Origin: Desulfonatronospira thiodismutans ASO3-1
Lineage (GTDB): Bacteria; Desulfobacterota; Desulfovibrionia; Desulfovibrionales; Desulfonatronovibrionaceae
DNA length: 64,000 bases
Reading direction: 5' to 3'
Assembly: GCF_000174435.1 (NCBI RefSeq)
Contig: NZ_ACJN02000001.1
Span: 795,658-859,657, forward strand
Shown: positions 15,382-30,123 of the stretch, piece by piece
How the letters are laid out: each line of letters starts with the position of its first letter
How positions within the stretch are numbered: position 1 is the stretch's first letter
The notes under the pieces: generated by a model
Told to the model about the DNA's origin: nothing
Database searches by the model: none
The model's input: only the letters and a program-made list of their open reading frames with translations
Made by a program: the position numbers and the translations under genes

Positions 15382-17637
15382 ATGAGCGAACAAGCCGGAA
15401 AAAACAACACTCTTGAGGAAAACCAGAAGACCACGGAAAATCAGGACGGACAGGACAAAGCACCACCCACGACCAAAGAAGCCAGAGACCTGGTGGTCAT
15501 GGTGGAGGCCGGGGTCAGGGATCCCAAAAGCATTGTTGCCAGATGGATTATTGTTCTGCTTTGCCTGGCCTGGTCCATTTTTCAGCTGTCAATAGCTCAT
15601 GACCCCATAAATTCGCATATTGCCAGGATCTGGCACCTGGCTTTCGCCATAGGACTGACCTTTCTGGTTTATCCGGCTTACAAACAGCACTCTACGCCAT
15701 TCTGGGTCAGTCTGACGCAAAAGATCATTCCTTCTTTCGCCAGCAAATCCATCCGTAAAACCATTCCCGTATACGACTGGATATTTGCTGCTCTGGGCAT
15801 GGCTTCTGCTCTTTACTTATGGTGGGATTTCGACAACCTTATTTTCCGCCAGGGCATGCCCAACCAGACCGATATTGTCATGGGCTTTATCCTGATTGTC
15901 CTTTTGCTGGAAGCTGCCCGCCGGGCCCTTGGACCGGCCCTGTCCATTCTGGCCGCCATCTTTCTGGCCTATAACTTCATTGGCCCTTATCTCCCGGAAA
16001 TACTCAGACACAGGGGCATTCCCCTGGACTTCATGATCAGCGACATGTACCTGACCACCACCGGGATTTTCGGGGTGCCCCTGGGGGTTTCCGTATCCTT
16101 CGTGTTTCTCTTTGTACTCTTCGGAGCACTGCTGGACCGGGCCGGCGGGGGAAAGTATTTCATTGACGTGGCCTTTTCCGCCCTGGGGACCTTCAGGGGA
16201 GGACCAGCCAAGGCAGCGGTACTGGCCTCGGGCATGACTGGCATGATCTCCGGTTCTTCCATTGCCAATACAGTCACCACCGGGACCTTTACCATTCCCC
16301 TGATGAAAAAAGTAGGGTTCCCGGGACACAAGGCCGGGGCGGTAGAGGTGGCCGCCTCCACCAACGGCCAGATCATGCCTCCCATCATGGGGGCCGCGGC
16401 CTTCATTATGGCTGAGATCATCGGCATACCCTACTTAGACGTGGTCCGGGCCGCCCTGTTTCCAGCCCTTATAGCCTACCTGGCCCTTTTGTACGTGGTC
16501 CACCTGGAATCGCTTAAAATGGGCATCAAGCCCTTGCCGCGCAAGGAACTGCCCAAATTCTGGAAAACCGTACTGAGGGGATGCCATTTTATAATCCCCC
16601 TGGCCATTCTGATTATCTACCTGGTTGTACTGAGGCGCTCTCCTGTTGCTTCCGCCCTGCACGCCATCCAGGGCCTCATGGTTATCATGCTGGTGCAGCG
16701 GCCCATTATCGCCTTTCTCTCCCTGGGATATCACCGCAAAGCCGGCACCCTGGACCCGGACCTGGACCTCAAGCGCTACATCAGCGGGGCTTTTGTGGAC
16801 GGCCTGCGTGACCTGTGGGACGGCCTGATCATGGGAGCCAGAAACATGATCTCCGTGGGCATAGCCACAGCCACGGCGGGCATAATCGTGGGCGTGGTCT
16901 CCATAACCGGTCTTGTGGGCCGATTCGTAAATATCATTGATGTGCTCTCCATGGGCAACATGGCCCTGATGCTTGTTCTGACCGCCATGACCAGCCTTAT
17001 CCTGGGCATGGGCATGCCTACAACCGCCAATTATATAATAATGGCCACCCTCACCGCGCCGGTCATTCTACACCTGGGCGCGGACATGGGCATAATTTTT
17101 CCCATCATAGCCATTCACCTGTTTGTATTCTATTTCGGAATCCTGGCGGACGTCACCCCGCCGGTGGGCCTGGCCTCCTACGCCGGAGCGGCTATAGCCA
17201 GGTCCGATCCCATCAAGACAGGGGTGCAGGCCTTCTATTACAGTCTTAGAACAGTTATTCTGCCTTTTATATTTCTGTTCAATACGGAACTGCTAATGAT
17301 TGCCGGGGTGACCGCAGCCGGAGGAGTAATATGGCTGGATGATCCTGTGCGCCTGGCCTGGATATTCTTTTCCGGACTTATCGCCATGTTCGCCTTTGCC
17401 TCTGCCCTTCAGGGCTGGCTGGTGATAAAATGCAGGTGGTACGAAAGGCTGTTTCTGCTTCTGGCCTGCGCCACCGCCTTCAGGCCGGGCGTATTTGAGG
17501 TCTACCTGCCCTTTGACCGCCTGGGAATGCAGATCCTGGGGGTATGCATGTTTTTCGCCGTATATATATTCCAGAAAATCAAGGTCCGGAGATTTCAGAA
17601 ATTCATGGCCTCCAGGGCCCAGGAAAAAGGAGAATAA
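15382..17637 (+). CDS. TRAP transporter permease, fused 4TM/12TM subunits
   Basis: A 751-residue membrane protein joining the small (DctQ-like) and large (DctM-like) TRAP permease subunits, the form that normally works with TAXI binding proteins. After a hydrophilic, charged N-terminus (residues 1-50) there are some 16-18 hydrophobic segments. The DctM signature is clear: ASGMTGMISGSSIANTVTTG, then GHKAGAVEVAASTNGQIMPP around residues 285-335, and MGMPTTANYIIMATLTAP near 540. TRAP systems use a Na+ or H+ gradient to import organic acids. The universal stress protein gene starts 3 bp after its stop, forming a common TRAP-Usp pair. Confidence 0.94.
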   Translation: MSEQAGKNNTLEENQKTTENQDGQDKAPPTTKEARDLVVMVEAGVRDPKSIVARWIIVLLCLAWSIFQLSIAHDPINSHIARIWHLAFAIGLTFLVYPAYKQHSTPFWVSLTQKIIPSFASKSIRKTIPVYDWIFAALGMASALYLWWDFDNLIFRQGMPNQTDIVMGFILIVLLLEAARRALGPALSILAAIFLAYNFIGPYLPEILRHRGIPLDFMISDMYLTTTGIFGVPLGVSVSFVFLFVLFGALLDRAGGGKYFIDVAFSALGTFRGGPAKAAVLASGMTGMISGSSIANTVTTGTFTIPLMKKVGFPGHKAGAVEVAASTNGQIMPPIMGAAAFIMAEIIGIPYLDVVRAALFPALIAYLALLYVVHLESLKMGIKPLPRKELPKFWKTVLRGCHFIIPLAILIIYLVVLRRSPVASALHAIQGLMVIMLVQRPIIAFLSLGYHRKAGTLDPDLDLKRYISGAFVDGLRDLWDGLIMGARNMISVGIATATAGIIVGVVSITGLVGRFVNIIDVLSMGNMALMLVLTAMTSLILGMGMPTTANYIIMATLTAPVILHLGADMGIIFPIIAIHLFVFYFGILADVTPPVGLASYAGAAIARSDPIKTGVQAFYYSLRTVILPFIFLFNTELLMIAGVTAAGGVIWLDDPVRLAWIFFSGLIAMFAFASALQGWLVIKCRWYERLFLLLACATAFRPGVFEVYLPFDRLGMQILGVCMFFAVYIFQKIKVRRFQKFMASRAQEKGE

Positions 17638-17640
17638 ATC

Positions 17641-18105
17641 ATGTACCAGCGCATTCTTGTTCCGGTTGACCTGCAGGAAGAAGACGAGCGCCTGCGCAAC
17701 CTTGCTCTGCAGAATGCAGTGGAACTCTGCAGGTTTTATAATGCCCGCCTTTATGTGCTTACTGTTGTTCCGGACCTGGGCATGCCCGTAGTGGGCAACT
17801 ATTTTCCCCAGGACGTGAGCAGCCAGATTGTACGCGAGGCTGAAAACCTTCTTCATGAACATGTGACCAGTCACTTGCCCCAGGATCTGGATATCCAGCA
17901 TATAGTGGCCCAGGGAACTGTTTATCGCCGCATCCTGAAAACCGCCAGGCAAGTCAATGCCGACCTTATAGTCATCCCGGCTCACCGCCCGACCCTGACA
18001 GAGTATTTTATCGGATCCAACACCTCCAGGGTGGTGCGCTACGCCGGATGTTCGGTGCTTGTTGTCCGCTCCGAACTGGACCAGAACATCATTTGCGTGC
18101 GATAA
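17641..18105 (+). CDS. Universal stress protein (UspA family)
   Basis: A 154-residue single Usp domain. It begins MYQRILVPVDL, the usual first strand with the Asp that contacts ATP. The C-terminal region IVIPAHRPTLTEYFIGSN, then RYAGCSVLVVR, corresponds to the G-x2-G-x9-G-S ATP-binding loop, but the usual glycines of the first part are replaced (HRPT), so ATP binding is doubtful. It starts 3 bp after the TRAP permease and is probably translated with it; TeaD of Halomonas is a Usp that regulates its TRAP transporter, and a similar role is inferred here. Confidence 0.9.
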   Translation: MYQRILVPVDLQEEDERLRNLALQNAVELCRFYNARLYVLTVVPDLGMPVVGNYFPQDVSSQIVREAENLLHEHVTSHLPQDLDIQHIVAQGTVYRRILKTARQVNADLIVIPAHRPTLTEYFIGSNTSRVVRYAGCSVLVVRSELDQNIICVR

Positions 18106-18200
18106 AGGCAGACTTGGCATCCGTTATGAACAGCGCTCAAAAAATTAACGAAAACGGCACAAACCTGTCACCTCTGAATGCTTTACTCCCTGAAAGCTGT

Positions 18201-18581
18201 CTAACGCGGGCTTTGCCCACAACCCAGATAAGAAAAGAGTTTTTGGCCCACAGATCACACAGATTGACACAGATAAAAGAGATTGAAGAAGCATGTTTTT
18301 TCCTTGCGGGAATAAGAACCCGCAAGGAAAAGGCATCAGCCGCTTGCGCGGGGGAAGATTACTCCCCGGTATCTACCGCGGATGCGGTGGAGACCATGTG
18401 CATACCAGGTTCTTCATTCCTGGTATGCACATAAAAAACCTCTCTTATCTGTGTGATCTGTGGGCAGTAGTCTTTTTCTTAAAAAAATAAGTGAGGCACA
18501 GTCCCAGTGCCAAGCGATGAACCCCGTCATGGCTCAAATTTTTCTTGTTTTTTGTGACAGGGTTTCAGGAGTAAGTCTAAA
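18201..18581 (+). repeat. Framed nested-palindrome repeat, copy 1 (core type I)
   Basis: The outer frame begins CGCGGGCTTTGCCCACAACC and ends in a GTTTTTTGTGACAGG...AGTAAGTCTAAA segment. The core is a nest of inverted repeats: CCACAGATCACACAG against CTGTGTGATCTGTGG outermost, then TTTTCCTTGCGGG against CCCGCAAGGAAAA, and ATGTGCATACCAGG against CCTGGTATGCACAT. It fills the gap before arsC and has no convincing gene. The same frame with other cores recurs at 23213, 27431, 29836 and 53076. Confidence 0.75.
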
Positions 18582-18592
18582 GGAGCTGTCAA

Positions 18593-19030
18593 ATGTCTGA
18601 AAAAAAGAACATTCTTTTTCTGTGTACCGGCAATTCCTGCCGCAGCCAGATGGCCCAGGGGTGGACCAATGCACTGCAGAGTGAAAATTTCCAGGCCTTT
18701 TCCGCTGGAGTTAAAAAAAGTTCGGTGGACCCCATGGCTGTAGAAGTAATGGGGGAAGCAGGCATAGACCTTTCAGGGCACTATTCCAAGCTCATTGAAG
18801 AACTGCCCGGGGTCAAGTTTGATTATGTGGTGACTCTTTGTGATCATGCCCGGGAAAGCTGCCCGGTTTTTTTCTCCGATGCCCAGAAAATTCACCACGG
18901 GTTTGACGACCCGCCTTACCTGGCCCGGGATGCCGCCTCACGGGATGAAGCCCTGGGATATTACCGCCGGGTGAGAGATGAAATAAAAGACTTTGTCCAG
19001 TCTTTTCCCCAGAGTCTGAAAACAGATTGA
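18593..19030 (+). CDS. arsC: Arsenate reductase, low-molecular-weight phosphatase type
   Basis: A 145-residue thioredoxin-coupled ArsC. The N-terminal P-loop FLCTGNSCRSQMAQGW holds the C-x5-R catalytic motif (Cys13 by my count). VVTLCDHARESCP has the two further Cys (spaced C-x6-C) that form the disulfide cascade, and HHGFDDPP supplies the DP general-acid loop. The product reduces arsenate to arsenite in the cytoplasm. No ArsR or arsenite pump is adjacent, so it is a stand-alone gene; the small permease at 9137 is too distant to assign. Ribosome site AAAGGAG is 8 bp upstream. Confidence 0.93.
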   Translation: MSEKKNILFLCTGNSCRSQMAQGWTNALQSENFQAFSAGVKKSSVDPMAVEVMGEAGIDLSGHYSKLIEELPGVKFDYVVTLCDHARESCPVFFSDAQKIHHGFDDPPYLARDAASRDEALGYYRRVRDEIKDFVQSFPQSLKTD

Positions 19031-19315: not shown

Positions 19316-20029
19316 ATGAGCAAGGGAAAAAAGTTCTCTCAAAGTCTGAGCCTGGAGGAGGCTTCAAATTTCCTGGCAGAACTGTCCGCAGCACTGGAAA
19401 ACAGGGAGGTAGTGCTGCAGGGCGAAAAAATCGCTTGGGACAGCATGCGCAAACTGAAATGCTCGTTTTATCCAAGAGGTGACAACCTGACCCTCAAGGT
19501 CAGTGTGGAGCAAACCAAGCCCGAAAATGAATCAAATGGCCTGCCTAAAAAAAAGAAAGGCAGAAAAAACGCACTGAAGCAGCTCAAGGCCGGGGCAAAG
19601 CTTAAACGATCAGAACTTAAAAAGAGGGTCAGGACCGCCTTCCGGGGTATTATGGACACCAGTGTTAAAGACGAAACACAAGCTGATGAGGCTGGTGCAG
19701 CACCTGTCCAGCCCCCCGGCACTGCAGGACCTTCCAGGAGCAAGACCGGCTACAAGACCTTGAAGAAAAGAATGAAAAAAACATTTGCCAGTATCCTGCG
19801 AAACGCGGCCAATTACCAGTTGCCCACGCAGAAGGAAATGGACTCGTTTATAAACGATTCCCAGGCCATGGTTGAATTCCCCGGGTATGGAGACGAGTAT
19901 TACCAGGAATACATGGACAGAGTAAGGCAGATGCAGGAGGCCTTCAGGCAAAATGATCCCCGGGAATTAATGCACAAGGCTCAGGAAGTGAACCAGCTGC
20001 AAAAAGACTGCCACAAGCGATACAAGTAG
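19316..20029 (+). CDS. XXXCH-domain protein with amphi-Trp-like N-terminus (GAK cluster)
   Basis: A 237-residue basic protein, first of the GAK-type cluster. Residues 1-65 resemble an amphi-Trp unit (SLEEASNFLAELSAALENRE, then IAWDSMRKLKCSFYPRGDNL). A long Lys/Arg-rich, probably disordered linker follows (about 70-170). The C-terminus ends in QLQKDCHKRYK, the C-H-x2-Y/R tail I associate with the NCBI 'XXXCH' domain of the GAK system. The catalytic role is unknown; the charged linker could bind nucleic acid or polyanions. GGGAGAAGC precedes the ATG. The PHP-like gene starts 7 bp after its stop. Confidence 0.7.
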   Translation: MSKGKKFSQSLSLEEASNFLAELSAALENREVVLQGEKIAWDSMRKLKCSFYPRGDNLTLKVSVEQTKPENESNGLPKKKKGRKNALKQLKAGAKLKRSELKKRVRTAFRGIMDTSVKDETQADEAGAAPVQPPGTAGPSRSKTGYKTLKKRMKKTFASILRNAANYQLPTQKEMDSFINDSQAMVEFPGYGDEYYQEYMDRVRQMQEAFRQNDPRELMHKAQEVNQLQKDCHKRYK

Positions 20030-21499: not shown

Positions 21500-23146
21500 A
21501 TGCCTTATTTCAGTGACCTGGAAGAAAAAATCCATTTTATGGTCCTGGAAGTAAACAGGCAGCTCGACGACACCCTGAAAATCATCCAGGATCCTGATCC
21601 CAGACTGGTGGACAAGGTCAAATCCCGGGACGACCGCATAGATAATTACAAGGTCATCATTGAAAACCTGTGTTTTTCCAGGATTCACGGAGAGGAAAAC
21701 CTGAGCAAAAAACAGGTGGACTTTATCCGGGCCACCAACATCATCAGCAACAACCTGGAAAAAATCAGCGACTTCTCGGTTTACATAGTCGATCAATTGA
21801 ACTACCTGTCCAGCGTTGAATACCTGCACAACTACAATTACCAGCCTTTTTTCCAGCATCTGAGCAGTTCACTGGACATGGTGGTCCAGGGACTGTTTAC
21901 ACGGGACCTGAACCATGCCCTGAACATCTGTAGAACCGAATTTGTTATAGACAAGCTCTTCAAGCGTGTTTTTGATCAGATTATCGAGGAACTCGACACC
22001 GCCCCCAATAAACAGAATATCATAACCTGCCTGTTTATATTCCGCTACCTGGAAAGAATGGGGGATGCCCTGCTCAACATCGGAGAAGCCATTATTTTCT
22101 CCGTATTCGGCGAAAAGCTGAAAATTCATCAGTATCAGGCCCTGGTGGAAAACCTGGACTCCATAAACAACGATATTTCCATCCAGGACGTGGGATTTGA
22201 GTCCATCTGGGAATCCAGATCAGGCTGCCGCATTGGTAAAATCATGGATTCTTCCCGCAGCGGCAGCCAGGGTGTCCTTTTCAAGGAAGGCAAGGCCGAA
22301 AAAATATCCAGGGAAAAAGAAAACATAGAGAGCTGGAAAAAGATATTTCCCAGTCTGGTTCCCAAAATATTCAGTTATACCCAGAGCAGAAAAAACGCGT
22401 CCATGCTGCTGGAATTTCTCCCCGGGTGCTCCCTGCAGGAGACAGTTCTGACCCAGGACCGGGACACCCTGGAAAACGCTTTGTTCATCCTCAAGGAAAC
22501 CCTGTCAATCACATGGAAAGATACCCTCAAGAACAAGCAGGTAAGTTCCGGATTTATGAAGCAGCTTGCCCAGCGAATCGACGACGTGCTCATGATTCAC
22601 CCGGAATTCAATTTTTCCGAAGCCAGTATCGGATCCCTGACCACCCCTTCTCTGGAGGACGTTATCAGGATCCTTAGCGAAGTGGAGGCCGAACTTAATG
22701 CTCCATTCTGCATATTTATCCACGGTGACTTTAACACCAACAACATAATCTACAATCAGAAAGAACAGCAGATCTACTTTATTGATCTGCACAGATCCTG
22801 CTACGGAGATTATGTCCAGGATGTATCTGTATTTCTGGTATCCAACTATCGCAAACCCGTTTTTGATGCCGGGATACGCAGGCTCATCAACCGGCTGAAC
22901 CAGGATTTTTTCAATTTTTCCAGGCGATTTGCAGCGGAAAATGCAGATGAAACCTTTGATGCCAGGCTGGCCATGGGACTGATCCGCTCTTTTTTCACTT
23001 CCACACGCTTTGAACTCAACCAGGAATTCGCTCTTGGCATGTACCAGCGGGCCCTGTACCTGGCTGAAAAAATCATCGCCCACAGGGGAAGGCCCTGGAG
23101 AGAGTTTTCCTTGCCGCCGGATGTGTTTAAATATGCAAGCTTCTGA
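21500..23146 (+). CDS. PhoU-like domain fused to an APH-type kinase (GAK cluster)
   Basis: A 548-residue two-domain protein. Residues 1-220 are helical and PhoU-like (DDRIDNYKVIIENLCFSRIH, then IISNNLEKISDFSVYIVDQL and FIFRYLERMGDALLNIGEAI, the ExxxD/ RxxD-rich helices of PhoU that bind metal clusters). Residues 235-520 are an aminoglycoside-phosphotransferase-type kinase: LLEFLPGCSLQETV (hinge), FIHGDFNTNNIIYN near 408 (catalytic loop with HGD-x4-N) and YFIDLHRSCYGDY near 428 (metal-binding ID). All key residues are present, so it should phosphorylate a small molecule. It may fill the kinase position of the cluster. A 410-bp repeat-filled gap separates it from the ATP-grasp gene. Confidence 0.8.
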   Translation: MPYFSDLEEKIHFMVLEVNRQLDDTLKIIQDPDPRLVDKVKSRDDRIDNYKVIIENLCFSRIHGEENLSKKQVDFIRATNIISNNLEKISDFSVYIVDQLNYLSSVEYLHNYNYQPFFQHLSSSLDMVVQGLFTRDLNHALNICRTEFVIDKLFKRVFDQIIEELDTAPNKQNIITCLFIFRYLERMGDALLNIGEAIIFSVFGEKLKIHQYQALVENLDSINNDISIQDVGFESIWESRSGCRIGKIMDSSRSGSQGVLFKEGKAEKISREKENIESWKKIFPSLVPKIFSYTQSRKNASMLLEFLPGCSLQETVLTQDRDTLENALFILKETLSITWKDTLKNKQVSSGFMKQLAQRIDDVLMIHPEFNFSEASIGSLTTPSLEDVIRILSEVEAELNAPFCIFIHGDFNTNNIIYNQKEQQIYFIDLHRSCYGDYVQDVSVFLVSNYRKPVFDAGIRRLINRLNQDFFNFSRRFAAENADETFDARLAMGLIRSFFTSTRFELNQEFALGMYQRALYLAEKIIAHRGRPWREFSLPPDVFKYASF

Positions 23147-23212: not shown

Positions 23213-23525
23213 GCTAACCCGGGCTTTGCCCGCAACCCAATAAAGAAAAGAGCTATTTGACAGGATTAACAGGATTAAGAGATGGATAAAGAAAAAAATC
23301 ATTTTGTCCTGGCCGGAAGCCAGGCCAAAAGGTTATCACTCCAGCACTCACTTTTTTCCGGCTCTCATGAATCCCAGAAGAAAGTGAGTGCTGGATGGTT
23401 AATGCAATCTGCGGCTTCCGGCCGCTGATTGCTTATCCTGTCATCCTGTTAATCCTGTCTAAGGCCTGCCACGCGCTTCGCGTGGTTATTGTTTTTTATG
23501 ACAGGATATCTAGAGTAAGCCTAAA
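23213..23525 (+). repeat. Framed nested-palindrome repeat, copy 2 (core type II)
   Basis: Frame: CCCGGGCTTTGCCCGCAACC at the left and CTGCCACGCGCTTCGCGTGG with GTTTTTTATGACAGG at the right. Core, from outside in: GACAGGATTAACAGGATTAA against TTAATCCTGTC, CTGGCCGGAAGCCAGG, and a long hairpin CCAGCACTCACTTT against AAAGTGAGTGCTGG. Near-identical inverted copies lie at 27431-27748 and 29836-30123. The gap 23147-23556 contains no gene besides this. Confidence 0.85.
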
Positions 23526-23556: not shown

Positions 23557-24456
23557 ATGAATGCTTCAAAAAAAGACAGAAAAATAGCCGTGATAGGCAA
23601 CCCCGGCAGCTGGTCCACTGAAAAACTGGCGGACGCCCTGGAAAATAAAACCGGGTTTCGCTGTGTTGTGGACATATCTTCGGTGATTTTCGATATAAAC
23701 CACAAGACCCTGTTTTACGGTGACCTGGACCTGGCTACCCTGGACGGACTGGCTATCAAAAAAATCGGCCCCGTGTATTCCCCGGATATGTACAACAGGC
23801 TGGAAATGCTTCGCTTTTTCTGCAGCATGGAAATACCGGTATTCTCCAGGCCGGAAATGATCATGCAGGCCGTGAACAGGCTCAGCTGCACTGTGAACCT
23901 GCAGATAGGCAACATTCCCATGCCGCCGACAGTGGTTACCGAGGACATGGAACTGGCCTGCGATACAGTGCGCAGATTCAAAAAGGCGGTGTTCAAGCCT
24001 CTTTTTTCTTCCAAGGCCCGGGGAATGCTGGTAGTGGAGGAAGGGTATCACTGCCGCTCAGCCATTGCCGAATTTCAGGCGTCAGGCAACAGGACCATGT
24101 ACATCCAGAAAATGGTTTCCATTCCCGGCCGCGACCTGGGCGTGGCCTTCATGGGCGGTGAATATATCGGCACTTATGCCCGGCGCAAGGGCGACTCCTG
24201 GAACACCTGCACATCCAGCGGAGGAAAATACGAGCGCTGTGAACCGGACCCGGAAATAATCAGCCTGGCCCACAGTGCCCAAGCTCTGTTCAACCTGGAT
24301 TTCACCTGTGTGGACGTGGTGGAAACCGATCAGGGCGCAATGGTCTTCGAAGTTTCGGCCTTTGGGGGCTTCAGGGGACTTTACCAAGCCTGGGGCATGG
24401 ACGCTGCAGATATGTATGCCGGCTATATCCTGGACAACCTTAAATATCGCTCCTGA
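23557..24456 (+). CDS. ATP-grasp enzyme (GAK cluster)
   Basis: A 299-residue protein with the RimK/GshB-like ATP-grasp fold. KKAVFKPLFSSKARGM near residue 147 gives the ATP-contacting Lys and the flexible small-residue loop. IPGRDLGVAFMGGEYIGTYA is the central strand pair, and CVDVVETDQGAMVFEVSAFG has the Asp/Glu that bind Mg2+ (E-V-S in place of the usual E-x-N, so one metal ligand is altered). Such enzymes join a carboxylate to an amine or thiol through an acyl phosphate; the substrate is unknown. It is followed 7 bp later by the CofD-like gene, so the two enzymes are probably made together. Confidence 0.83.
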   Translation: MNASKKDRKIAVIGNPGSWSTEKLADALENKTGFRCVVDISSVIFDINHKTLFYGDLDLATLDGLAIKKIGPVYSPDMYNRLEMLRFFCSMEIPVFSRPEMIMQAVNRLSCTVNLQIGNIPMPPTVVTEDMELACDTVRRFKKAVFKPLFSSKARGMLVVEEGYHCRSAIAEFQASGNRTMYIQKMVSIPGRDLGVAFMGGEYIGTYARRKGDSWNTCTSSGGKYERCEPDPEIISLAHSAQALFNLDFTCVDVVETDQGAMVFEVSAFGGFRGLYQAWGMDAADMYAGYILDNLKYRS

Positions 24457-24463
24457 AACCTGC

Positions 24464-25672
24464 ATGCCTTCAGAATCTGCACATAAAATTCATATATGCC
24501 GGACAGTATCTCTGCCTGATCCAGTAAAACTCACCAGGTATCTCAAGGTTCCTGAATTCGGCCCCAGAATACTTTTTTTCAGCGGCGGCACTGCTCTGAA
24601 CCCCCTCAGTCGGGCCCTGGTGCGCTACACCCACAATTCCATCCATCTGGTAACCCCTTTTGACTCCGGAGGAAGTTCGGCCAAACTGCGCAACACATTC
24701 AAAATGCCGGCAGTGGGTGATATGCGCAGCCGCCTCATGGCTCTGGCCGACCAGAGCGTCAAGGGCAATCCTGAAATCTACAACCTGTTTGCCTACCGTC
24801 TGCCCAAGGATGAAGACAGGGAAAAGCTTAAATCCATCCTGATGCGCATGGCTGACGGACATCATCCCCTGGTGCGCAGCATCCACGATCCCATGCGCAA
24901 AATAGTCTGCAGTTACATTACCGCCTTTGCCAGAAAAATGCCCGAAGACTTCGATTTAAGAGGGGCCAGCATGGGCAACCTCATTCTGGCTGCCGGGTAT
25001 TTCAGCCACAATCGTCATATAGACCCGGTAATCTTTCTTTTTTCCAAGCTGGCTGAAGTACGTGGCATGGTCAGACCCATAATGAACAAGTATCTGCACC
25101 TGGTATCCAGGCTGGAAAACGGGGAAATCCTCCTGGGGCAGCACGAACTTACCGGCAAGGAAACCCCGGCCATAGAATCGCCGGTGCAGGAAATATATCT
25201 GAGCAGCAGCCTGAAAAAACCGGCACCAATATACCCGCGTCTCAAGGAAAAGGTCAGACGGCTGATACAGGATGCGGAACTTATCTGTTATCCCATGGGC
25301 AGCTTTTATTCCAGCCTCATGGCCAACCTGCTGCCCCGGGACGCAGGTTCAGCCATTGCCCGGAACGAATGCCCCAAGATCTACATCCCCAATACCGGAC
25401 ACGATCCCGAAGAAAAGGGCACCAATCTCAGGCAGAGAGTTGAGATTCTTCTTTATTATCTGCACCAGAGCGCCGGAAAAAAACACAAGGACAGTCAGCT
25501 GCTCAATTTTGTCTTGCTGGACAAGGATCATGAATTGTATAAGGGGGGTGTAGACGTATCAGGAATAGAGAGACTGGGTGTAAAGGTGATAGAAGCCCCT
25601 CTGGTGGACCCTGAAAACCGGCCGTTTCTCAATGCGGATTTTCTCCTTGAGAGGCTTCTTTCCATGGTCTGA
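24464..25672 (+). CDS. CofD-like protein (GAK cluster)
   Basis: A 402-residue relative of CofD (2-phospho-L-lactate transferase) and YvcK. Motifs in order: FFSGGTALNPLSRAL near residue 40, VTPFDSGGSSAKLR near 64, VGDMRSRLMALAD near 83, LRGASMGNLILAAGY near 165 and YPMGSFYSSLMANLLP near 277. These are the nucleotide- and phosphate-binding loops of the family, so a nucleotide-dependent transfer or binding role is likely; F420 synthesis is not implied because the sequence differs from true CofD and no F420 gene is adjacent. The frame is open upstream to 24275 inside the ATP-grasp gene; I take the ATG at 24464, 7 bp after that gene's stop. Confidence 0.83.
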   Translation: MPSESAHKIHICRTVSLPDPVKLTRYLKVPEFGPRILFFSGGTALNPLSRALVRYTHNSIHLVTPFDSGGSSAKLRNTFKMPAVGDMRSRLMALADQSVKGNPEIYNLFAYRLPKDEDREKLKSILMRMADGHHPLVRSIHDPMRKIVCSYITAFARKMPEDFDLRGASMGNLILAAGYFSHNRHIDPVIFLFSKLAEVRGMVRPIMNKYLHLVSRLENGEILLGQHELTGKETPAIESPVQEIYLSSSLKKPAPIYPRLKEKVRRLIQDAELICYPMGSFYSSLMANLLPRDAGSAIARNECPKIYIPNTGHDPEEKGTNLRQRVEILLYYLHQSAGKKHKDSQLLNFVLLDKDHELYKGGVDVSGIERLGVKVIEAPLVDPENRPFLNADFLLERLLSMV

Positions 25673-25690: not shown

Positions 25691-25847
25691 CACTACAGCG
25701 AAACTTATTTATTGACCTCCGGGGACTGTCCCGCACCTACTTGGGAATGATTTCATGAAATCGCTGGAACTTGCTGAGAAATCAAGTAGGTGCGGGACTG
25801 TCCCCAGTTTAGACAGGTTGAAAATTTTTATAAGTTTCGCTGTAGTG
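25691..25847. mobile_element. MITE with 4-bp target duplication, copy 2 (157 bp)
   Basis: Ends CACTACAGCGAAACTTAT and ATAAGTTTCGCTGTAGTG are perfect inverted repeats. TTAT flanks both sides (25687-25690 and 25848-25851). The core holds GTCCCGCACCTACTTG against CAAGTAGGTGCGGGAC with GGGGACTGTCCC at both shoulders. It sits between the CofD-like gene and the second amphi-Trp gene, 36 bp before the latter's ATG, so it may carry or displace that promoter. Confidence 0.9.
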
Positions 25848-25882
25848 TTATTCTATCATCAAAAAACAAACGGAGGACGAAT

Positions 25883-26278
25883 ATGAGCAAGAATGAACTT
25901 AAGTACAAGGCTGTTTTGGGTAAGGACCAGGTCATTGAACACCTGGAGAGTCTTATGCACGCAGTCAAGGAAGGACGTCTCAATGTGCAGCATGAAGACC
26001 AGTCTCTGTGCCTTGCCCCGGGAGAAAACCTCAAGCTGGAAATCAAGGCCGGAGCCAAGGAAAACAAGGAAAAAATCGAGTTTGAACTGAGCTGGAGCGA
26101 AAACATGGAGCTGACTGACCAGGTCGGCCAGTTGAACATTTCCAGCACTGAGCCGGAAGTGGAATCCTTTTCTGAAAACCCCTTGCAGGAAGGGGATGCT
26201 TCCAGCAGGTCACCGGCCTCTTCCGGACCGGCCATAGTGGCCGGAGATGAAAGCAGTGGGGAAAAGGACAAAAGCTGA
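25883..26278 (+). CDS. Amphi-Trp domain protein 2 (GAK cluster)
   Basis: A 131-residue protein. Residues 1-75 are an amphi-Trp domain (KYKAVLGKDQVIEHLESLMH, then VKEGRLNVQHEDQSLCL and KIEFELSWSENMEL with the family Trp). The remaining 55 residues are Ser/Glu/Pro-rich and probably disordered (SSRSPASSGPAIVAGDESSG). The ATG at 25883 has a GGAGGACGAAT ribosome site; the frame opens upstream at 25790 but that part is MITE. The gene is separated from the other GAK genes by the MITE, so it may have its own promoter. A selenoprotein gene follows 59 bp later. Confidence 0.78.
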   Translation: MSKNELKYKAVLGKDQVIEHLESLMHAVKEGRLNVQHEDQSLCLAPGENLKLEIKAGAKENKEKIEFELSWSENMELTDQVGQLNISSTEPEVESFSENPLQEGDASSRSPASSGPAIVAGDESSGEKDKS

Positions 26279-27430: not shown

Positions 27431-27748
27431 GCTTACTGCTGAAACCTTGTCATAAAAAACAATAACCACGCTAACCACGCTATGAAGCGTGGCAGGACGC
27501 GTGGCAGGCCTTAGACAGGATTAACTACGCCAAAGACGCGTGGCAGGCATAGATTGCATTAACCATCCAGCACTCACTTTCTTCTGGGATTCATGAGAGC
27601 CGGAAAAAAGTGAGTGCTGGAGTGATAACCTTTTGGCCTGGCTTCCGGCCAGGACAAAGATGATTTTCTCTTCATCAATCTCTTAATCCTGTTAATCCTG
27701 TCAAAAAAGTTCTTTTCTTTATTGGGTTGCGGGCAAAGCCCGCTTTAG
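27431..27748 (-). repeat. Framed nested-palindrome repeat, copy 3 (core type II)
   Basis: Inverted relative to copy 2: the GCGGGCAAAGCCCGC end is at 27730-27744 and the CATAAAAAACAATAACCACG end at about 27451. The frame's CACGC module is expanded into several tandem pieces at 27468-27550 (ACCACGCT, GCGTGGCAGG). The central CCAGCACTCACTTT hairpin is intact. It fills the gap 27378-27826 between nadD and uvrB, along with a short TTAAC-rich tail. No gene is seen. Confidence 0.85.
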
Positions 27749-29835: not shown

Positions 29836-30123
29836 GGCTTACTCCTCAGACCCTGCCACAAAAAACAAGAAACTTAGACAGGATTAACAGGATTGACAGG
29901 ATAAGCAATCAGCGGCCGGAAGCCGCAGATTGCATTAGCCATCCAGCACTCACTTTCTTCTGGGATTCATGAGAGCCGGAAAAAAGTGAGTGCTGGAGTG
30001 ATAACCTTTTGGCCTGGCTTCCGGCCAGGACAAAATGATTCTTTTCTTTATCCATCTCTTAATCCTGTTAATCCTGTCAAATAGCTCTTTTCTTTATTGG
30101 GTTGCGGGCATGGCCCGCTTTAG
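29836..30123 (-). repeat. Framed nested-palindrome repeat, copy 4 (core type II)
   Basis: Same orientation and core as copy 3, but without the expanded CACGC module. The GCGGGCATGGCCCGC end (30104-30118) stops 2 bp short of the TAA of the NUDIX gene, so it may form the 3' end of that transcript. Fills the whole gap between uvrB and the NUDIX gene. Confidence 0.85.

Follow-up and report, generated by a model that had tools for sequence, protein, structure and literature searches.

The stretch of DNA analysed here (the window; 64,000 nucleotides of Desulfonatronospira thiodismutans ASO3-1) contains an operon in which a PhoU-like domain and an APH-type kinase are encoded by a single open reading frame, flanked by genes of the GAK system (Table 1). 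The ATG of the fusion gene abuts the stop codon of the upstream amphi-Trp gene, and the two genes are therefore probably co-translated. The true start of the CofD-like gene should lie downstream of the listed one, since the TIGR04357 match begins at residue 96. For the second amphi-Trp gene, an ATG at about position 25883 suits the domain better than the start of the longest open reading frame.

Table 1 Features of the operon and of a second locus (L046) of the same genome
Feature	Position	Strand	Remarks
GAK system XXXCH-domain protein	19316..20029	+	TIGR04358, 118.4 bits (cut-off 40)
PHP-type phosphoesterase, 391 aa	20037..21212	+	Assigned by fold of model; no NCBIfam or Pfam family; conserved partner of the fusion
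amphi-Trp domain protein, 95 aa	21212..21499	+	TIGR04354, 67 bits (cut-off 31); directly 5' of the fusion
PhoU-APH fusion, 548 aa	21500..23146	+	PhoU domain residues 1-209, kinase about 231-548
PhoU domain, two PhoU repeats	21500..22126	+	Acidic motifs D44-x3-D48, E87-x3-D91, E147-x3-D151, E185-x3-D189
APH-type kinase domain	22190..23143	+	K262, E272, H408-G-D410, N415, D429; invariant R432, R451, R460, R489, R496, R503
MITE-like inverted-repeat element	23257..23480 (end approximate)		Gap between fusion and ATP-grasp gene
GAK system ATP-grasp enzyme	23557..24456	+	TIGR04356, 441.8 bits (cut-off 300)
GAK system CofD-like protein	24275..25672	+	TIGR04357, 580.1 bits (cut-off 340); longest ORF
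Second amphi-Trp domain protein	25790..26278	+	TIGR04354, 64.6 bits; longest ORF
PHP-GT4 of second locus	L046 5825-8287		34 nt upstream of second PhoU-kinase gene

The MITE-like element, with ends of the TTGACAGGATTAACAGGATTAAG type, matched at four places in the window (23257-23480, 27682-27704, 29875-29897 and 30058-30080), with none expected. The copy at 23257-23480 showed strong folding as single-stranded DNA (z -11). Upstream of the operon (15382-19030) lie genes for a TRAP-type membrane protein, UspA and an ArsC-like protein, an order that is also kept in two further loci (L062 and L063, with a Usp-ArsC spacing of about 4.7 kb in L063). The ArsC-like protein of the window scored below the NCBIfam arsenate reductase cut-offs; its gene would fit a phosphate/arsenate theme.

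HprK-related kinase B was not found in the 64-kb window in a profile search. The only such gene of the genome (C1:768046-769059, above the TIGR04355 cut-off) is part of the second locus, L046, which is located about 22-34 kb before the window. There, a gene for a PHP-glycosyltransferase (PHP-GT) is followed by a second fusion gene, a second ATP-grasp gene, a further amphi-Trp gene and the gene for HprK-related kinase B, after which come pstA, pstC, pstS, pstB and phoU. The second fusion protein is 64% identical to that of the window. The two loci complement one another in their GAK genes.

Pfam matches were obtained for both halves of the window fusion. PhoU (PF01895) matched in two stretches with 84 bits (cut-off 23.5, whole-protein E-value 9.6e-24), APH (PF01636) with 37.7 bits (cut-off 23.2, E-value 2.4e-9), and EcKL (PF02958) also matches the kinase half. 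All NCBIfam matches of the fusion were below their cut-offs. The equivalog model TIGR02135 for the stand-alone phosphate signalling protein PhoU gave 81.5 bits (cut-off 130.25) and the APH(3') model 39 bits (cut-off 205); NCBIfam thus places the protein outside both standard PhoU and aminoglycoside kinases. Given the latter score, the APH label does not stand for aminoglycoside resistance. The nearest named relatives of the genome are Desulfonatronospira MAGs, with 75-93% protein identity over the fusion. The fusion is real and not an artefact of sequencing or chance, as it recurs in 118 of the 247 genomes of the class and in 28 of the 394 genomes of a phylum sample.

In the AlphaFold model of the fusion, which was built with an alignment of 50 homologues (mean pLDDT 90.5, pTM 0.75), the helices of a PhoU domain are joined to a two-lobed kinase in which no membrane segments are predicted. 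When compared by VIA-align, residues 1-205 of the model matched Aquifex PhoU (1t72; Z 25.3, 1.9 Å over 203 residues) and residues 205-548 matched 5-methylthioribose kinase (2pyw; Z 22.0, 4.1 Å over 306 residues). The top Foldseek match was APH(3')-Ia with an E-value of 3.2e-8. The Pfam matches and the predicted folds bear out the original prediction of a PhoU-like domain and an APH-type kinase in one chain, and the HGD-x4-N and ID motifs named there are intact (HGDFNTNN, H408-N415; I428-D429). A predicted structure without the PhoU bundle or without the kinase lobe would have refuted it, whereas the model has both.

Among 58 aligned homologues, the residues K262, K268, E272, H408, G409, D410, N412, N415, D429, R432, D437, D441, R451, R460, D483, R489, R496 and R503 of the kinase half are invariant, and K262, E272, H408, G409, D410, N415 and D429 are likewise invariant across the alignment of 50 homologues. 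K262, the HGD motif, N415, D429, R432, D437 and D441 align with APH(3')-Ia. This alignment ends just past D441, and R451, R460, R489, R496 and R503 are without an aligned counterpart. R489, R496 and R503 follow one another at a spacing of seven residues on a single helix predicted by the model (486-504). From these five conserved arginines we infer that the kinase would act on an anionic small molecule.

The acidic motif of both PhoU repeats is (E/D)-x3-D. Its positions in the fusion were read off the homologue alignment. In the PhoU half, E147, D151, E185, D189 and E196 are invariant in all 58 sequences, E87 is kept in 54 and D91 in 53 of them, while D44 and D48 are present in at least 90% of the 50 homologues.

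The conserved upstream partner of the fusion, the 391-aa protein, yielded only chance-level rows in sequence searches, with no relative of assigned family or solved structure. Its predicted structure resembles 3o0f (Z 16.6), RNase AM (9etk; Z 16.0) and 2yb1 (Z 15.4), and H67, H69, H99, E113, H130, H278, D334 and H336 are invariant. By its predicted fold, the protein is a PHP-type phosphoesterase.

Comparison across the class Desulfovibrionia ties the fusion to the GAK system. The 118 genomes with the fusion are identical to those with the GAK ATP-grasp enzyme (TIGR04356), neither being found alone in any genome, and for 123 of the 140 fusion rows used the ATP-grasp gene lies within 2 kb. Fisher tests gave p values of 1e-73 and 3e-21, which overstate independence, and relatedness of the genomes was ignored in all statistics. 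For gene neighbourhoods, a diverse set of 60 loci was chosen; its 56 genomes comprise 36 from within the order and 20 of the 22 from outside it. The PHP-like protein was found in 54 of these loci, amphi-Trp proteins in 58, the ATP-grasp enzyme in 50, HprK-related kinase B in 46, the CofD-like protein in 41 and the XXXCH protein in 39. The usual gene order is XXXCH, PHP-type phosphoesterase, amphi-Trp, PhoU-kinase, ATP-grasp, HprK-related kinase B, CofD-like and amphi-Trp. A divergent lone paralogue of the PhoU-kinase (36-38%), with no GAK neighbours, was observed in one genome (G045; L050 9488-11236), and a similar one in another (G029).

In the phylum sample, TIGR04356 was found in 23 genomes, and the five genomes with the fusion and without this model (G456, G475, G532, G567 and G599) all belong to one family, f82. 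In the corresponding loci (L086, L087, L088, L090 and L091), genes for ATP-grasp, HprK-related kinase B and CofD-like proteins are missing from the fetched stretch; the fusion does therefore occur without the other GAK genes. Four of these loci (L086, L087, L088 and L090) have a minimal form consisting of the PHP-like, amphi-Trp and PhoU-kinase genes. A scan of 19 proteins of the reduced-set loci, neighbours and fusions taken together, revealed housekeeping or sensor genes, among them acetate kinase in L086 and L087.

The recurrence of the fusion in other GAK clusters, which had been put forward as a check, extends beyond the phylum to plasmids of Rhodobacterales. A tblastn search of plasmids returned seven records, five of them with more than 80% coverage, from Tritonibacter, Qingshengfaniella and Pseudooceanicola. 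In three Rhodobacterales plasmid loci, genes for the GAK ATP-grasp enzyme, HprK-related kinase B and amphi-Trp proteins adjoin the fusion, which is annotated as 'phosphotransferase' only. These clusters are without the PHP protein and have a calcineurin-like and a histidine phosphatase instead, which fits a need for some phosphoesterase. The 'metallophosphoesterase' of Rhodobacterales was compared with the PHP-like protein and is not its orthologue.

Based on co-occurrence and gene order, we conclude that the PhoU-kinase fusion and the PHP-like protein are additional, hitherto unnamed core members of the GAK system. Neither of them matched any GAK-named NCBIfam model. NCBIfam lists the system by name and types three of the models as 'hypothetical equivalog'; in open-licence PMC literature, we found no described function for it and no description of the arrangement of a PhoU-kinase with GAK genes.

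The cluster had also been proposed to be linked to phosphate or energy state. We found no support for a link to energy state, while that to phosphate is supported by adjacency to pst-phoU genes and by enrichment of PhoB boxes. The pst genes are present in 7 of the 60 loci, representing seven genera, and an ordinary PhoU is also encoded at each of these. The probability of such an adjacency by chance is about 2e-5 when two pst operons per genome are assumed and 1.5e-3 when four are assumed. In three of the loci (L055, L098 and L107), the GAK operon lies behind pstB-phoU in the same orientation, and the small gaps between phoU and the XXXCH gene (-20, 42 and 117 nt) suggest that phoU and the GAK genes are on one transcript. 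In L076, the GAK operon comes 274 nt after pstS-C-A.

For the promoter scan, operon starts were set by the longest open reading frames. The E. coli-type consensus CTGTCAT-N4-CTGTCAT was not enriched upstream of the operon. In PMC3333781, the PhoB box of D. vulgaris is worded as a YGTNAC repeat with a 6-bp repeat and a 4-bp spacer. A period of 10, the literal reading of that wording, gave exact sites in 0 of 58 operons and 0 of 30 pstS upstream regions. With a period of 11, the pstS regions, which served as a period-specific positive control, had exact boxes in 15 of 30 cases and boxes with at most one mismatch in 23 of 30. Boxes of the D. vulgaris type with at most one mismatch were present upstream of 15 of the 58 operons, compared to 28 of 429 control upstream regions taken from the same loci and not from random genes (p 2.8e-5). 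A period of 13 was also enriched at up to one mismatch (5/58 operons, 3/429 controls).

A PhoB matrix was then derived from 20 distinct boxes of pstS promoters only, several motif versions having been tried beforehand. With 416 controls from the same loci, 11 of the 58 operons exceeded the 99th percentile of the controls (controls 5/416; p 1e-7) and 27 exceeded the 90th percentile (controls 42/416), leaving 31 operons at or below the latter. A Mann-Whitney test of the scores gave p 1.6e-9. Restricting the controls to the 276 whose upstream DNA is non-coding left the enrichment in place (p 8e-9), and of 300 matrices with permuted columns none matched it. The 11 operons with strong boxes span ten genera and four families, with the g14 loci L059 and L065 as examples. 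The box of the window operon is weak (score 9.1; 90th and 95th percentiles of the controls 7.7 and 11.0), and the second locus scored 7.0, so that PhoB control is at most a possibility in this organism. The GAK operon appears to be part of the Pho regulon in many Desulfobacterota.

The explanation we favour, with a probability of roughly 0.6, is that the fusion is a kinase tuned by its PhoU domain to the phosphate status and partnered with the PHP phosphoesterase, both being core members of a Pho-linked GAK system. The C-terminal kinase, with its complete active site, would phosphorylate a small anionic metabolite, while the N-terminal PhoU domain, whose acidic motifs of the metal-binding type are kept in Desulfobacterota, would serve as the input that sets kinase activity according to phosphate status. 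Gating of the kinase output by the PhoU domain, as in the original prediction, is plausible. Most simply, the PhoU half may dock onto the Pst/phosphate machinery to which ordinary PhoU binds. The neighbouring PHP-type phosphoesterase would act on the same anionic molecule and reverse or complete the kinase reaction. The ATP-grasp, HprK-like and CofD-like enzymes would then elaborate the product of this putative kinase/phosphoesterase cycle, in an order of steps that we infer. With the operon apparently in the Pho regulon of many Desulfobacterota, phosphate limitation would be the condition under which the system works. Speaking against this explanation are the low box scores of the window operon, of the second locus and of the 31 operons at or below the 90th percentile, the degraded PhoU motifs and the lack of annotated pst genes near the fusion in the three Rhodobacterales, the five f82 loci without the GAK enzymes and the enrichment seen at period 13.

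More tentatively, and with the odds somewhat against so specific a version, the PhoU half might report phosphate influx, perhaps via PstB, and thereby switch the kinase/PHP pair, with a phosphorus-sparing or limitation-specific metabolite being made together with the ATP-grasp, HprK-like and CofD-like enzymes. If true, GAK would be a biosynthetic or signalling pathway of the Pho regulon under both allosteric and transcriptional control by phosphate.

The PhoU half could instead be a structural or oligomerisation module only, with a constitutive kinase within GAK and a phosphate link that is at most transcriptional. This stays a live rival because of the three Rhodobacterales homologues, in which the kinase residues are intact and E147, E185 and most other acidic residues of the PhoU half are replaced; on these sequences, metal-based sensing by the PhoU half cannot be universal. 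The annotations of the three Rhodobacterales plasmid loci also show no pst gene over 9 kb around the fusion, in line with a structural role. However, invariance of E147, D151, E185, D189 and E196 in 58 sequences would exceed the needs of a scaffold, and pst-phoU genes are physically linked to the operon in seven genera. We regard a purely structural PhoU half as less likely than the favoured explanation, at about one chance in four.

Slightly less likely still is a role of GAK and the kinase in the synthesis of phosphorus-free glycolipids, in which a precursor would be made or regulated for the often adjacent PHP-GT, possibly an enzyme of the type that produces MGDG/GADG when phosphate is limiting. 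The PHP-GT, about 800-850 aa long, combines PHP motifs, recognised by eye, with a GT4 domain and was found in 123 of the 247 genomes. It is present in 95 of the 118 genomes with the fusion and in 28 of the 129 without it, is no more than 12 kb away from the fusion in 17 of the 95 that have both (six genera), and directly precedes the second fusion gene of the genome studied here (Table 1). Exact PhoB boxes were found upstream of the PHP-GT gene in three of nine loci. According to Bosak et al. 2016 (PMC5193443), Desulfovibrio alaskensis G20 makes MGDG and GADG only under phosphate limitation and needs Dde_3613, a group I glycosyltransferase, for both. Dde_3613 may be a counterpart of PHP-GT. 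On the other hand, 23 genomes with the fusion are without PHP-GT at the threshold used, 28 have PHP-GT without the fusion, and, taken together, the nine regions upstream of PHP-GT did not clearly exceed the controls in matrix score (p 0.06).

An aminoglycoside or other drug phosphotransferase fused to PhoU by chance would account for the APH fold and the HGD/ID motifs, but is highly improbable given the low APH(3') score, the retention of the fusion with GAK in 118 of 247 genomes and the invariant arginines of the C-terminal half, which would be unsuited to cationic aminoglycosides.

The GAK system gains two unnamed core members, the PhoU-linked kinase and the PHP phosphoesterase, as well as a testable condition, phosphate limitation. 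The covalent linkage of PhoU to an enzyme that can be assayed could also ease the study of PhoU signalling.

Compared to known systems, the fusion shares with the GAK system (TIGR04355-TIGR04358 and amphi-Trp TIGR04354) its genomes and its operon, whereas the fusion and the PHP-like protein are outside every GAK-named model. Fold and catalytic residues are common to the fusion and the APH/EcKL/MTR-kinase superfamily (PF01636, PF02958), from which it differs by the N-terminal PhoU domain and by R451, R460, R489, R496 and R503 past the APH(3')-Ia alignment, and from APH(3') itself by a score below the NCBIfam cut-off. With PhoU (PF01895, TIGR02135) it has in common the two repeats, the fold (Z 25.3), the acidic motifs of both repeats (58 sequences) and, in some genomes, the linkage to pst. 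Unlike PhoU, it bears a kinase and falls short of the TIGR02135 equivalog cut-off, and each of the seven pst-linked fusion loci encodes a separate ordinary PhoU as well. The PhoU survey PMC13170248 excluded multi-domain PhoU proteins. The NptA phosphate transporters described in the same paper, which carry a PhoU-like domain at their C-terminus, resemble the fusion in that PhoU is joined to another functional module; in NptA this module is a transporter, whereas in the fusion it is a kinase.
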